From positions 414,444-478,443 of the forward strand of contig NZ_BMNZ01000005.1 of the NCBI RefSeq assembly GCF_014646815.1: a stretch of DNA of 64,000 bases, given 5' to 3'. Positions within the stretch are counted from its first letter, which is position 1, and the number at the start of each line of letters is the position of its first letter. A model generated the notes under the pieces. It was not told the origin of the DNA. It was given only the letters and a program-made list of their open reading frames with translations, and did not search any database. Of the stretch, positions 72 to 64,000 are shown in pieces. A program made the position numbers and the translations under genes. This DNA comes from Terrabacter tumescens. Its GTDB lineage: Bacteria > Actinomycetota > Actinomycetes > Actinomycetales > Dermatophilaceae.

Positions 72-1802
72 TCAGGGGGCGGCGGGCAGGAGGAGGCTGA
101 AGGTCGTGTCTCCCGGGCGGCTGTCGAGCTCGACACGTCCGCCGTGGGCCTTGCTCACGGCCGCGACGATCGACAGGCCCAGACCCGTGCTGCCACTCGC
201 CCGCACCCGTGCCCCGTCACCTCGGGCGAACCGCTCGAAGACGTTGGGCTGCAACGACTCCGGCACGCCGGGTCCGTCGTCGTGGACGGCCACACGCACC
301 CACTCGCCCTCGGGTCGCACCGACGTCGTGACACGGGTGCCGTCGGGGGTGTGCGTGCGCGCGTTGGCCAGCAGGTTGGCCACGACCTGGTGCAGCCGGG
401 CCCCGTCGCCGGTCACCTCGACCGGCTCGGGCGGCAGGTCAAGGTCCCACCGGTGGCCGGGTGATGCGGCGTGGGCGTCGCTGACGGCGTTGATGACGAG
501 CATCGACATGTCGACCGACGCCGCCTCCAGCGGGCGTCCGGCGTCGAGGCGCGCGAGAAGGAGCAGGTCCTCGACGAGCGAGCTCATGCGGTTGGCCTCG
601 GACTCGATGCGGCCCATCGCGTGCGTGACTGTCTGCGGGACGACATCGGGCTCGCGCCGTGACAGCTCGGCGTAGCCCTTGATCGAGGCGAGCGGCGTGC
701 GCAGCTCGTGCGAGGCGTCGGCGACGAACTGGCGCACCCGCTGCTCGCTCTGGTGCCGGGCGTTGAGGGCCTCGTCGACGTGGTCGAGCATCTCGTTGAA
801 GGCGGCCCCCACCTGCCCGACCTCGGTGCGTGTGTCGGTGTCCGCCGGGGCGACGCGCTCGCCCAGGGCGACCCGACCCGACGCCAGCGGCGTCTGCGAG
901 ACCTTCGTGGCCGTGGCCGCGACCCGGCGGAGCGGCTCGAGGTTGCGCCGCACGAGCCAGGTGCCGAGCAGGGCCACGAGGATGATGCCGGCCGCGACGG
1001 TCGCGATCGCGATGACGATCATGCGCCCGACGATGACGTCGGTCGGTCCGGTCGAGATGCCGGCCACGTAGGTGCCGATCACCTGGTCGCCGGTCTGGAG
1101 GTTCCGGATCGGCCGGGTGGCCGCGACCGTGCGGTAGCGGCCGATCTCGCCGCCGAGGTCGAGCGTCTTCGGCGTCGACCCGAGCCCGGCCGCCTTGACG
1201 AGCGCGATCTGGGAGCTCGTCAGACTGGTGCGCACCCCGGATCGGTAGACGTAGCCGGCGTTTCCGTCCGCCGTGAGGTAGACCTCCATCCGGTCCGCCC
1301 CCGGGCCGCCACCCGGGCCTCCGTCGTCGTCACCACCCCGGCTGGGGCGGTTGAGGGAGTCGGACAGCTGCTGGTCGACCTGGCCGATGAGGGCCTGGTT
1401 GAGCGCGGTCACCGTGAACACGGCGGTCATCATGCTGAGCACGGTGAACAGGGCGAGCATCGAGGCGACGAGCTTGGCGCGCAGGGACCACGCCGACCAC
1501 GGCCGCACCCGCTCGCGCGTCGAGTCCCACCGCTCGCGCAGCGTCGGCCCGCCCGTGTCCCTCGGACCGGACTTGGACGTGGCCCCGGCCGACCCGGCAG
1601 GTGCGGCGGCAGCGGTGCCCGGCGACACGGCATACGCCATCGTGTCGTCGGTGTCGCGAGCCGTACGGCTGTTCTCGTCGGTGAAGCCGACCCCGTCCGC
1701 GAAGAGGTCGGGCGCTGCGGAGCCGTCGGCCTCGGGGAGGTCGGCGGGGTCGGGGAGGTCCGTGACGGCGTGGCCGATGTCAGACGGCCGGCTTGAGGAC
1801 AT
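72..1802 (-). CDS. Membrane sensor histidine kinase (OmpR-partner, EnvZ/MprB type)
   Basis: 576 residues. A long Pro/Ala-rich cytoplasmic N-terminus (1-105) is followed by a transmembrane segment (about 109-135), an extracytoplasmic domain with a Gly/Asp-rich stretch, a second membrane segment (about 260-285), HAMP, HisKA and HATPase_c. The phospho-acceptor is His365 in ASHELRTPLAS; the N box is VANLLANARTHTP and the G boxes are DDGPGVPE and GSTGLGLSIV. It is the second gene of an operon with the response regulator; its ATG (1802) overlaps the regulator's 3' end by 23 bases. Signal unknown. Residues 54-64 (MAYAVSPGTAA) closely match a segment of the membrane protein encoded across the divergent promoter. 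A shorter start at Met54 is possible but less likely. Confidence 0.93.
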   Translation of the reverse strand: MSSSRPSDIGHAVTDLPDPADLPEADGSAAPDLFADGVGFTDENSRTARDTDDTMAYAVSPGTAAAAPAGSAGATSKSGPRDTGGPTLRERWDSTRERVRPWSAWSLRAKLVASMLALFTVLSMMTAVFTVTALNQALIGQVDQQLSDSLNRPSRGGDDDGGPGGGPGADRMEVYLTADGNAGYVYRSGVRTSLTSSQIALVKAAGLGSTPKTLDLGGEIGRYRTVAATRPIRNLQTGDQVIGTYVAGISTGPTDVIVGRMIVIAIATVAAGIILVALLGTWLVRRNLEPLRRVAATATKVSQTPLASGRVALGERVAPADTDTRTEVGQVGAAFNEMLDHVDEALNARHQSEQRVRQFVADASHELRTPLASIKGYAELSRREPDVVPQTVTHAMGRIESEANRMSSLVEDLLLLARLDAGRPLEAASVDMSMLVINAVSDAHAASPGHRWDLDLPPEPVEVTGDGARLHQVVANLLANARTHTPDGTRVTTSVRPEGEWVRVAVHDDGPGVPESLQPNVFERFARGDGARVRASGSTGLGLSIVAAVSKAHGGRVELDSRPGDTTFSLLLPAAP

Positions 1803-2517
1803 ACCCAGCTCCTCGCATGGTGTGGATCATCGGCTCCCGTCCCGCGTCGATCTTCTTGCGCAGGTAGGAGATGTAGAGCTCGACGACGTTGGCCTGGCCG
1901 CCGAAGTCGTAGTTCCAGACACGGTCGAGGATCTGCGCCTTGGACAGCACCCGCTTGGGGTTGCGCATGAGGTAGCGCAGGAGCTCGAACTCCGTTGCGG
2001 TCAGGTGGATCTCCTCGCTGCCGCGCATCACCTCGTGGCTGTCCTCGTCGAGGGTGAGGTCGCCGACGACGAGCATCGAGTCCGAGGACGAGACGGCGAT
2101 CGTCGTGCGGCGCATGAGCGCACGGACGCGGGCGACGACCTCCTCGAGGGAGAACGGCTTGGTCACGTAGTCGTCGCCGCCGGCGGTGAGCCCCGAGACG
2201 CGGTCCTCGACGGCATCCTTGGCGGTGAGGAAGAGGACCGGCACGTTGCTGTTGTCGGCGCGCATGCGGCGCAGCACCTCGAGCCCGTCGAAGTCGGGCA
2301 GCATCATGTCGAGCACGACCGCGTCGGGGTCGAACTCGCGCGCGGCGCGCACGGCCTCCATGCCGGTGCCGGCTGCGCGCACCTCCCAGCCCTCGTAGCG
2401 CAGCGCCATGCCGAGCAGCTCGGTGAGGTTGGCCTCGTCGTCGACGACGAGCACCCGCACCGGGGAGCCGTCGAGCCGCTGGAGTCGCGCTGCTGCGGGC
2501 TTGGTCTTCTCGCTCAT
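1780..2517 (-). CDS. OmpR/PhoB-family response regulator
   Basis: 245 residues: receiver domain (about 20-132) and winged-helix DNA-binding domain (about 150-243). Visible receiver residues are the acidic pair in VLVVDDEANL, phospho-acceptor Asp70 in VVLDMMLPDFDG, Thr in LFLTAKD and Lys in DYVTKPF. The C-terminal domain has the OmpR pattern LTATEFELLRYLM and ends RGAGYVLKPAV. The ATG at 2517 was chosen because a receiver domain needs only a short leader; upstream open frame is a shadow of the divergent gene. It overlaps the kinase gene and must be its partner. The kinase N-terminus and a divergently encoded membrane protein share a peptide, suggesting that protein is a target or accessory. 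Confidence 0.95.
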   Translation of the reverse strand: MSEKTKPAAARLQRLDGSPVRVLVVDDEANLTELLGMALRYEGWEVRAAGTGMEAVRAAREFDPDAVVLDMMLPDFDGLEVLRRMRADNSNVPVLFLTAKDAVEDRVSGLTAGGDDYVTKPFSLEEVVARVRALMRRTTIAVSSSDSMLVVGDLTLDEDSHEVMRGSEEIHLTATEFELLRYLMRNPKRVLSKAQILDRVWNYDFGGQANVVELYISYLRKKIDAGREPMIHTMRGAGYVLKPAV

Positions 2518-2666
2518 GTCATCCAGTGAAACCCGAGGGCCTGTGCGATGACCAGTACCTCCCTGTGTGATTCCTGTGGAGCCTCTGTCCCGGTCGGCGC
2601 CAAGTCCCAGCCCTCCGACGGCTCTGCCACAGCGCTCGCACAGGCAGCCGCCGGACCGTGATCCCC

Positions 2667-3353
2667 ATGAGCAACGAGTCCATGCCCCAGGTGCCGGCGG
2701 AGCAGCCGAAGCCGGCGCTCCCGCAGTTCGACCCGAGCGGCCCGGAGACCGCGGACGACACGCAGCACCTGCCGACGGCGGCGACGAGCGAGATCCCCGT
2801 GACCCCGCCGTCCACGCCGTACGCGTATGCCGTGTCGCCGGGTGCCGCGGCCCCCATCGCCGGGCCGGGTGTGCCGCTCTCGCCCACCGGCCTGCCTGTT
2901 CGCGAGAACGGGAACTCGGGCGACGGGTCGCGCTGGAGCGCGAAGAAGACGGCCGTGACCGCCGGGCTCGCCCTCCTGCTGACGTCGGCGGGCGCCGTCG
3001 CCGCGGCCGCCGCGATGCCGTCCGGTTCGACCGGGGACGACGGCGGCTTCCGCGGTCCGGGCGGGGGCCGCAACTTCCAGTTCCCGGGTGGTCAGCGTGG
3101 CCTGCAGAACCAGCAGGGCCAGCAGGGCCTCCAAGGCCTGCAGAACCAGCAGGGCACGACGCCGCAGCAGCTGCCGAACCTGCAGAACGGCGGGGGCCTG
3201 AACGGCATCGACCCCAACCAGCTGAGCCAGCTCGACCCGCAGGACCTGCTCCAGCAGCTGGGCCAGGGCGGACCAGGTTCGGACCCGTTCTCCGACGACC
3301 AGGACCAGGACGACTCCGGCTCGAGCACGCCCGACAGCGCCAGGACGACCTGA
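2667..3353 (+). CDS. Single-pass membrane protein with Pro-rich N-terminus and Gln-rich C-terminus
   Basis: 228 residues from the ATG at 2667; a GTG at 2658 would add three residues. A Pro/Ala-rich, probably cytoplasmic N-terminus contains PYAYAVSPGAAAPIAG. One hydrophobic segment (TAVTAGLALLLTSAGAVAAAA) follows, then an outside tail rich in Gln, Asn, Gly and Leu (repeats such as GLQNQQGQQGLQGLQNQQG) ending in an acidic Ser/Asp stretch. It is transcribed away from the two-component operon with about 150 bases between the starts. I recognise no family. The architecture resembles small accessory or target proteins of envelope-sensing systems; the link to the adjacent kinase is inference from position and the shared peptide. 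Confidence 0.75.
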   Translation: MSNESMPQVPAEQPKPALPQFDPSGPETADDTQHLPTAATSEIPVTPPSTPYAYAVSPGAAAPIAGPGVPLSPTGLPVRENGNSGDGSRWSAKKTAVTAGLALLLTSAGAVAAAAAMPSGSTGDDGGFRGPGGGRNFQFPGGQRGLQNQQGQQGLQGLQNQQGTTPQQLPNLQNGGGLNGIDPNQLSQLDPQDLLQQLGQGGPGSDPFSDDQDQDDSGSSTPDSARTT

Positions 3354-63669: not shown

Positions 63670-63671
63670 CT
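63666..63671 (+). promoter_or_regulatory. -10 element (TACCCT) for the leaderless OYE gene
   Basis: TACCCT ends seven bases before GTG 63679 and overlaps the last GCGGYWACC repeat. Confidence 0.45.
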
Positions 63672-63678
63672 CGGGCGG

Positions 63679-64000
63679 GTGACGACGGCATACCCCCACC
63701 TGCTCGAACCGCTCGACCTCGGCTTCACGACGCTGCGCAACCGCGTCGTCATGGGCTCGATGCACACCGGCCTCGAGGACCGCGCCAAGGACTTCGACCG
63801 GCTCGCGGCCTACTACGCCGAACGGGCACGCGGCGGGGTCGGCCTCATCGTCACGGGCGGCTTCGCGCCCAACCTCGCCGGCTCCCTCTACCCGGGCGGC
63901 TCCGTGCTCGTGACGGAGCGCCAGGCTCGTCGCCACCGGGTCATCACGAACGCCGTGCACCGCGAGGGCGGCAAGATCGCCCTGCAGATCCTGCACGCCG
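63679..64000 (+). CDS. NADH:flavin oxidoreductase / Old Yellow Enzyme, 5' part
   Basis: 107 residues before the window ends. [59 protein letters not shown] and [19 protein letters not shown] are the N-terminal OYE barrel, and the GSMHTGLED form matches the 2,4-dienoyl-CoA reductase (FadH) subgroup. Whether the C-terminal FAD/NAD domains of FadH follow cannot be seen. Start GTG 63679, predicted leaderless; the third to fifth codons contain a GGCATAC motif copy. Truncated by the window edge. Confidence 0.85.

Follow-up and report, generated by a model that had tools for sequence, protein, structure and literature searches.

We studied a short DNA word, GTATGCC, that recurs on both strands of a 64-kb stretch of the Terrabacter tumescens genome (C5:414444-478443 of an assembly of 4.71 Mb in 23 contigs), referred to from here on as the window. 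An exact count gave 41 copies of the heptamer in the window (20 on the plus and 21 on the minus strand), of which 39 (19 plus and 20 minus) are copies of the 8-mer GTATGCCG and 27 (12 plus and 15 minus) are copies of GTATGCCGT. These figures are identical to those of an earlier reading of the window made from its letters (the sequence-only reading), which had given the last as approximate, and those of its coordinates that were checked proved correct to within a few bases. Genes were predicted with a home-made script, and their ends are therefore approximate. According to this prediction, eight of the 41 copies lie outside genes, two on the plus strand (16618-16624 and 18986-18992, the ATG of the latter beginning a mechanical open reading frame at 18988-19899) and the others on the minus strand (7756-7762, 14909-14915, 41120-41126, 44194-44200, 49764-49770, and 63687-63693). 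The other plus-strand copies are at 2825-2831, 7677-7683, 11581-11587, 12961-12967, 22298-22304, 26872-26878, 30409-30415, 31983-31989, 37561-37567, 39011-39017, 39985-39991, 42451-42457, 46609-46615, 50390-50396, 56917-56923, 58372-58378, 61270-61276, and 62613-62619; on the minus strand, they are at 1629-1635, 14107-14113, 16006-16012, 22233-22239, 30325-30331, 31531-31537, 37261-37267, 39437-39443, 43653-43659, 47314-47320, 59233-59239, and 60805-60811. Three further minus-strand copies supply the ATG that is the predicted start codon of a gene, namely 25667-25673 (gene 25000-25671, minus strand), 55530-55536 (gene 52079-55534, minus strand), and 57104-57110 (gene 56278-57108, minus strand). 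The window contains no tRNA or Rfam match, and at 15382-16575 it encodes what appears by eye to be a kbl-type glycine acetyltransferase, which shares 97% identity with the corresponding protein of Terrabacter aerolatus.

The over-representation of the word on both strands, asserted by the sequence-only reading, extends to the whole genome, in which GTATGCCG occurs 2358 times (1158 + 1200) compared with 199 occurrences (111 + 88) of the reversed control word. In a 464-kb sample consisting of the window and a further 400 kb, we counted 264 copies where a third-order Markov model expects 13.9, and GTATGCCG and its overlap TATGCCGT were the top two 8-mers by third-order z-score; a fifth-order model, which already holds most of the word, expects 197. 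Codon-aware expectations were obtained by synonymous shuffling and by a stricter version that also keeps the next base. The 182 coding copies in the 464 kb compare with 7.7 ± 2.4 and 10.0 ± 2.2 copies under these two nulls, respectively. The density was 1.32 per kb in intergenic DNA and 0.46 per kb in coding DNA, i.e. approximately 3-fold higher between genes; when the sample was enlarged by 20 kb for the later counts, 188 coding copies were seen against 12.3 expected and 78 intergenic copies against 1.4. Over all of these codon-aware nulls, the excess in coding DNA is 15- to 24-fold. We also considered eligible positions, defined as coding sites at which synonymous codons alone would allow the word. 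In the own-genome sample, 188 of 536 such positions are filled with GTATGCCG, compared with 8.1 expected from codon usage, and this holds for the frame encoding Tyr-Ala (113 of 207) as well as for the frames that require a GCA codon (45 of 150) or an ATA codon (18 of 117). The proposal that selection acts on the DNA rather than on the protein is thus borne out, as is the cost paid in rare codons, because the motif accounts for 113 of 182 TAT and 18 of 27 ATA codons. Copies had been said to occur in all frames; five of the six are used, but antisense frame 0 is empty (0 of 12). Two outcomes that had been named beforehand as speaking against the claim, a genome-wide count close to the codon-aware expectation and confinement to a few conserved protein segments, were not what we found, since the word lies far above expectation and occurs genome-wide, in five frames, and between genes. 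Together, the Markov, codon-aware, and eligible-position counts rule out chance and codon usage as the cause of the excess.

The 78 intergenic copies yielded an extended consensus of approximately G-A-K-G-R-C-GTATGCCG-T-S, with C at position -1 in 74% and T at position +8 in 67%. The conserved core is 8-9 bp long and the flanking preferences are weak, which, together with the filling of synonymous positions in five of six frames, leaves the suggestion that the word is a residue of a mobile repeat without support. Intergenic density was highest between convergent genes (3.05 per kb, 14 sites), followed by divergent (1.34, 15 sites) and tandem genes (1.10, 32 sites). Some close inverted pairs are present, and the spacing of copies is more even than random (coefficient of variation of the gaps 0.84 versus 0.99, p = 0.0015). 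In two long contig segments, the strands are used equally in every 50-kb stretch (130 to 134 overall). In the aligned kbl region of seven motif-bearing relatives, the site was kept in 44 of 66 comparisons, which are not independent because the relatives overlap in descent, compared with 31-44% of all 8-mers; none of nine sites was kept in Intrasporangium flavum and none of five in Humibacillus sp. DSM 29435.

The word is a property of part of the family to which T. tumescens belongs, the Dermatophilaceae. All nine genomes of the genus carry 1,423 to 2,358 copies of GTATGCCG, the lowest number coming from a draft that is 74% complete. Using thresholds of our own, and with genomes that use a different word thereby counted as low, we classed 105 of 186 family genomes as high, 14 as intermediate, and 67 as low in GTATGCCG; by majority, 29 of 53 genera were high, five intermediate, and 19 low. 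Loci with the word come from Terrabacter, Humibacillus xanthopallidus, Intrasporangium oryzae, Knoellia, a Janibacter, a Tetrasphaera bin, Serinicoccus, Ornithinimicrobium, and others, and none was found in the 16-21 kb examined from each of I. flavum and four Phycicoccus. A table of 396 genomes, read by eye and covering this family and 19 others of the order, contains no genome with more than 180 copies outside the family.

When the low-GTATGCCG genomes were scanned for 7- to 9-mers with a codon-aware null, other words came to light, which we call dialects; the clearest of them is GGATGCCG. In genome G178, GGATGCCG fills 115 of 445 eligible positions (19 expected) and has 51 intergenic copies (2.0 expected), and the same word fills 10 of 36 eligible positions (1.1 expected) in Humibacillus sp. 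DSM 29435. Genome G092 uses GTACGGCG (96 of 470 eligible positions, 24 expected), and its genus mate G094 carries GTATGCCG; genome G016 uses GTAGACC (57 of 229, 12.5 expected). Three Salinibacterium loci, which represent the same region of related strains and are thus not independent, have GGATGCCG at 19 of 53, 20 of 50, and 21 of 47 eligible positions, with approximately 3 expected in each; no copy falls in the 3.5 kb of definable between-gene space, and another count put eight outside predicted genes. A weak excess of GGATGCCG was seen in G162 (45 of 326, 18.3 expected), and scan scores were moderate in G029, G091, and G184. GTACGCCG lies above the codon null in G098, G010, G023, and Nocardioides; its standing as the dialect word of G098 is uncertain because it displays neither an intergenic excess nor alternation of orientation there. 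No convincing word emerged from G009 (138 kb), G060 (140 kb), G046 (100 kb), G104 and G030 (60 kb each), or three Mobilicoccus and four Phycicoccus loci, and, as four dialect words tested show no excess in G060, G009, or G046, the scan does not yield dialects everywhere. The remaining genomes were scanned over 20-80 kb, at which size weak dialects can be missed.

The arrangement of copies revealed a dependence on orientation. Adjacent GTATGCCG copies alternate in orientation in 172 of 262 cases in the T. tumescens genome (p = 5e-7), and alternation was also seen in seven Knoellia loci (75 of 97), in G178 with its own dialect (113 of 159), in G092 (67 of 107), and in 18 loci of other genera (114 of 163), compared with a mean of 0.48 and a maximum of 0.59 for 111 control 8-mers of similar count. 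Values above one-half that did not reach significance came from Serinicoccus and Ornithinimicrobium (40 of 67), Salinibacterium (40 of 65), and seven stretches around Tad loci (36 of 59). We then counted pairs of copies less than 1.5 kb apart in 37 segments, some of them orthologous, with 723 copies of GTATGCCG and the G178 dialect word. Same-orientation pairs numbered 164 against 330 expected and opposite pairs 392 against 355, with no deficit of opposite pairs in either order (+- or -+). In the own genome, the ratio of observed to expected same-orientation pairs rises from 0.21 below 250 bp to 0.95 at 2-3 kb, and that of opposite pairs stays at 0.85-1.20. The same result was obtained when the availability of sites was controlled. 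Own-genome eligible positions are filled in 114 of 217 cases (53%) without a same-orientation copy within 1.5 kb and in 74 of 319 (23%) with one (p = 5e-12), and an opposite copy makes no significant difference (141 of 376 versus 47 of 160, p = 0.08). In G178, the corresponding figures are 51 of 88 versus 64 of 357 with a same-orientation copy (p = 5e-13) and 102 of 398 versus 13 of 47 for opposite copies (p = 0.7). Each strand therefore carries its own array, and the process that favors the word treats the two orientations separately. Further, because same-orientation copies exclude each other independently of the opposite strand in two dialects, one copy per stretch is enough, and a copy every one to three kilobases suffices for the process. 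The sequence-only reading had taken even strand use as an argument against polar signals; the strands are indeed balanced in every 50-kb stretch checked, but balance does not mean that the function is non-polar, because exclusion operates between copies of the same orientation and not between opposite ones. Overall, we conclude that GTATGCCG is a genuine, lineage-specific, and polar word that is maintained at the level of the DNA. As a separate observation, opposite GTACGGCG pairs closer than 250 bp in the G092 loci L104-L107, L153, and L175-L178 are ordered -+ in 21 of 23 cases, as expected if many GTACGGCG copies overlap their own complement as a palindrome.

The sequence-only reading had asked whether competence genes exist, and they do. 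In the T. tumescens genome, a comEC gene (Pfam Competence and lactamase_B domains) adjoins comEA (SLBB and HHH). A Tad cluster near a gene named by eye as prfB has Pfam matches for a T2SSE ATPase (in two pieces), for two T2SSF proteins, and for TadE and Tad; its order is tadA-tadB-tadC-small pilins, and one small protein has, by eye, a G/XXXXE[FS] processing site. Because this order and site resemble those of the tad-1 cluster of Micrococcus luteus, in which Tad pili are required for transformation (PMC4322843), we call it Tad-1. Across the family, comEC is present in 180 of 186 genomes and TadE-type pilins in 181; being nearly universal, neither can be the gene that decides whether the motif is present. 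A classical type IVa pilus was likewise discarded as a candidate, since PilM_2 matches only seven of the 186 genomes, that of T. tumescens not among them. The TadB protein of Tad-1 has no match at E 1e-10 in 21 of 186 genomes, of which 15 are low and five high in the motif and one is intermediate; one of the 21 was deduced from its absence from the match list. It is missing in 15 of 67 low compared with 5 of 105 high genomes (Fisher p = 0.001; p = 0.005 for genomes at least 90% complete) and, at the genus level, in 6 of 19 low compared with none of 29 high genera (p = 0.002), all of these values ignoring kinship. The six genera without a match are thus all low in GTATGCCG. The association between Tad-1 TadB and the motif is real but imperfect and correlative. 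We note that the Tad-1 TadB match in G023 (C1:460849-461664) holds an in-frame TGA.

We tentatively favor the view, to which we give somewhat less than an even chance, that GTATGCCG, as the core of an extended form of approximately C-GTATGCCG-T-S, is a polar self-DNA uptake signal serving transformation through the Tad-1 (Flp-type) pilus and ComEA/ComEC. This reading covers most of the facts, and an uptake signal, listed among the options of the sequence-only reading, was a sound first choice. A surface or membrane receptor linked to Tad-1 would bind the word and feed one DNA strand, chosen by the orientation of the word, into ComEC; DNA bearing the word would be imported more often, and biased recombination (molecular drive) would thereby spread the copies, with little gained from a second one nearby in the same orientation.

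The obvious comparison is with the DNA uptake sequence (DUS) of the Neisseriaceae and the uptake signal sequence (USS) of the Pasteurellaceae, whose density, strand balance, intergenic excess, regular spacing, and close inverted pairs have been described (PMC1626085 and PMC2397512). Like DUS, GTATGCCG is short and non-palindromic, occurs approximately once per 1-2 kb on both strands, is denser between genes, forms close inverted pairs, and has dialects. Like USS, it is found genome-wide with even spacing and balanced strands and with lineage variants amid shared competence genes. The letters ATGCCGT are common to the GTATGCCG-type word and the extended neisserial DUS. The core neisserial DUS is GCCGTCTGAA, and the Hin and Apl types of USS are subclade-specific variants among shared competence genes, more regular than random and with no orientation bias (PMC1626085). 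GTATGCCG thus has the genome-wide excess, the absence of replication-strand bias, the even spacing, the intergenic excess, the dialects, and the competence genes of these systems, the last also being present in motif-free genomes. It differs in having a high-GC Gram-positive host and, with pilM in so few family genomes, in the pilus; judged by PilM_2, the type IVa pilus with a DNA-binding minor pilin (ComP or the proposed PpdA/ComN) is missing, minor pilins themselves not having been searched for. It differs also in its orientation-specific spacing, because the pair counts (164 versus 330 and 392 versus 355) point to a function that is not independent of orientation, and same-orientation exclusion with strand independence is not reported for DUS in those parts of the literature consulted. 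Therefore, although GTATGCCG works like DUS and USS, it should not be filed with them, given the missing type IVa pilus and the different rule of orientation. The closer parallel in gene content is the Flp/Tad-dependent transformation of M. luteus, also an actinobacterium with tad clusters and ComEA/ComEC; unlike the genome-wide word described here, no uptake sequence is mentioned in the M. luteus papers that we searched by word.

Several points weigh against an uptake signal. In H. influenzae, uptake driven by USS is independent of the orientation of the signal (PMC1939737), and polarity would thus not be expected. A simple directional-import model predicts some redundancy of convergent copies, which is not seen in the pair counts. 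Alternation is absent for the GTACGCCG word of G098 (45 of 94) and in G094 (12 of 24, from 29 sites). The own tadA of Tad-1 is split by an insert of approximately 5.5 kb (65% G+C; L211 13212-18689, i.e. C6 at approximately 342.2-347.7 kb), which carries a serine recombinase gene (Pfam Resolvase and Recombinase); in the sister genomes G002 and G003, tadA is unbroken and encodes approximately 405 amino acids. The TadB statistics ignore phylogeny and use a "low" class that is low in GTATGCCG and includes the dialect genomes, and three of the six TadB-less genera are single genomes. G081, G082, G126, and G132 are near-complete and have no Tad-1 TadB match, yet carry 994-2541 copies; a recent loss of TadB, with the motif not yet decayed, could explain them. 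In the genus of G060, TadB is present in 15 of 16 genomes, and no word was found in the one genome sampled. The presence of comEC and Tad genes does not predict the motif, as both occur in genomes such as G060 in which no word was found. In L261 (G178) and L262 (G092), our filter passed no flp-, tadE-, or tadF-like frame within approximately 5 kb after tadB; the frames seen there are others, as if genes of foreign origin had been inserted. Finally, we know of no transformable member of the family.

An alternative in which polarity is expected is a Chi-like signal, at which a helicase-nuclease arriving from one side would stop degrading DNA and begin to load RecA; the enzyme here would be of the AdnAB type. 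Chi (RecBCD/AddAB) is a polar word of 5-8 bp that varies between bacteria, and GTATGCCG resembles it in being short, polar as judged from spacing, and variable between lineages. The independence of the two orientations is as would be seen if an enzyme read a single strand in a fixed direction, and an AdnAB-type enzyme stays a candidate because PDDEXK_1 nuclease domains occur in all 186 family genomes, many in open frames of approximately 1,050-1,130 amino acids; these genes are, however, equally present in motif-free genomes, and we know of no Chi response of AdnAB. Also in favor of a Chi-like signal, RecC is more frequent in the low-motif class than in the high one (10 of 19 versus 5 of 29 genera, p = 0.013; 38 of 67 versus 44 of 105 genomes, p = 0.06). 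Against it, GTATGCCG occurs in genomes with RecC as well as in those without, and RecC, matched in 89 of 186 family genomes, is unmatched in the T. tumescens genome and in seven of eight genus mates. Unlike Chi of Escherichia coli, GTATGCCG has neither a leading-strand bias (130 to 134, versus a 75:25 split, p = 3e-19) nor clustering in the same orientation. The Chi word of Escherichia coli K-12, which we take to be GCTGGTGG, is strand-biased over 800 kb (134 to 71) and has an excess of same-orientation pairs within 1.5 kb (73 versus 42.7), the opposite of GTATGCCG. A Chi-like function is, on this evidence, unlikely, and a RecBCD Chi is rejected on the balanced strands, the lack of a RecC match in the own genome, and the reversed E. 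coli pattern. The FtsK-orienting polar sequences (KOPS) are rejected as well, with GTATGCCG balanced per 50 kb and the G178 dialect word balanced in nine chromosome windows.

We consider it equally improbable that some other polar, strand-specific process is at work, e.g. one that protects or loads single strands entering the cell by transformation or conjugation, or one driven by the DNA translocase of some mobile element. Strand independence in both orders (+- and -+) fits recognition of a single strand better than that of a duplex fragment; no gene for such a process was identified, and a single mobile element would not readily account for a word that is abundant in 29 of 53 genera. It also seems improbable, to a marginally greater degree, that the word is the binding site of a chromosome-organizing protein, such as a nucleoid-associated, cohesion, or segregation factor that needs regular oriented sites. 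The even spacing, the preference for intergenic DNA, and the presence of the word in nine of nine genus genomes agree with this proposal; however, dialects and absence from sister genera would not be expected of an essential protein, motifs linked to FtsK or replication should be strand-biased and no such bias was seen, and a simple spacing scaffold is at odds with the indifference that opposite copies show to each other whatever their distance. A mutational or repair bias that creates the word without function, e.g. deamination of methylated C or a trace of restriction-modification, is very improbable, and its simple C-to-T form is rejected, because, although GTACGCCG is depleted in own coding DNA (35 versus 74 expected) as if by C -> T change, frames that need other base changes (GCA and ATA) are also filled and a bias does not explain why the fill rate falls from 53 to 23% near a same-orientation copy.

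With a polar uptake signal still preferred, a wider and more doubtful proposal is that GTATGCCG and its dialects form a third class of self-DNA signal, one that arose independently and would be the first from Gram-positive bacteria, with strand-specific, evenly spaced arrays read by a Tad pilus and ComEC and with dialects that change quickly across the Actinomycetota (Dermatophilaceae, Salinibacterium, and possibly Nocardioides) and act as a species barrier to recombination. A 2025 paper names the Neisseriaceae and Pasteurellaceae as the sole families known to select their own DNA by a short word (PMC12616744). The sequence-only reading had supposed that the word was not described in this group, and the literature searched agrees; among the papers listed there was no report of such a word in Actinomycetota, which is weak evidence of absence as subscription papers and preprints lay outside the scope of the search, and, among the matches listed for the letters GTATGCCG, none concerns such a genomic signal. 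If the word is an uptake signal, sequence-selective transformation would extend to Gram-positive bacteria and use a pilus of another kind there. Natural transformation would then be open to many actinobacteria of soil and wastewater, giving a practical means of genetics in Knoellia, Tetrasphaera, Janibacter, and others, and the dialects would set the borders of recombination. If the word does not serve uptake, strand-by-strand exclusion still indicates a polar process, hitherto unknown, that reads the chromosome every few kilobases.

The genomes scanned for dialects also contain words of another kind. Loci L130-L132 (G098) and L138-L139 (G022) share common short repeats around TACTCGACC, GTCGAGTAG, and CTCGATAC, which resemble a dispersed repeat. 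In L127-L129 and L159 (G184), GGTGCGACG and CGGTGCGAC have 13 intergenic copies each, against less than one expected, and constitute an intergenic repeat; another such repeat, TGAATCCGC with its overlapping 9-mers, has eight intergenic copies in 100 kb of L191-L195 (G016).

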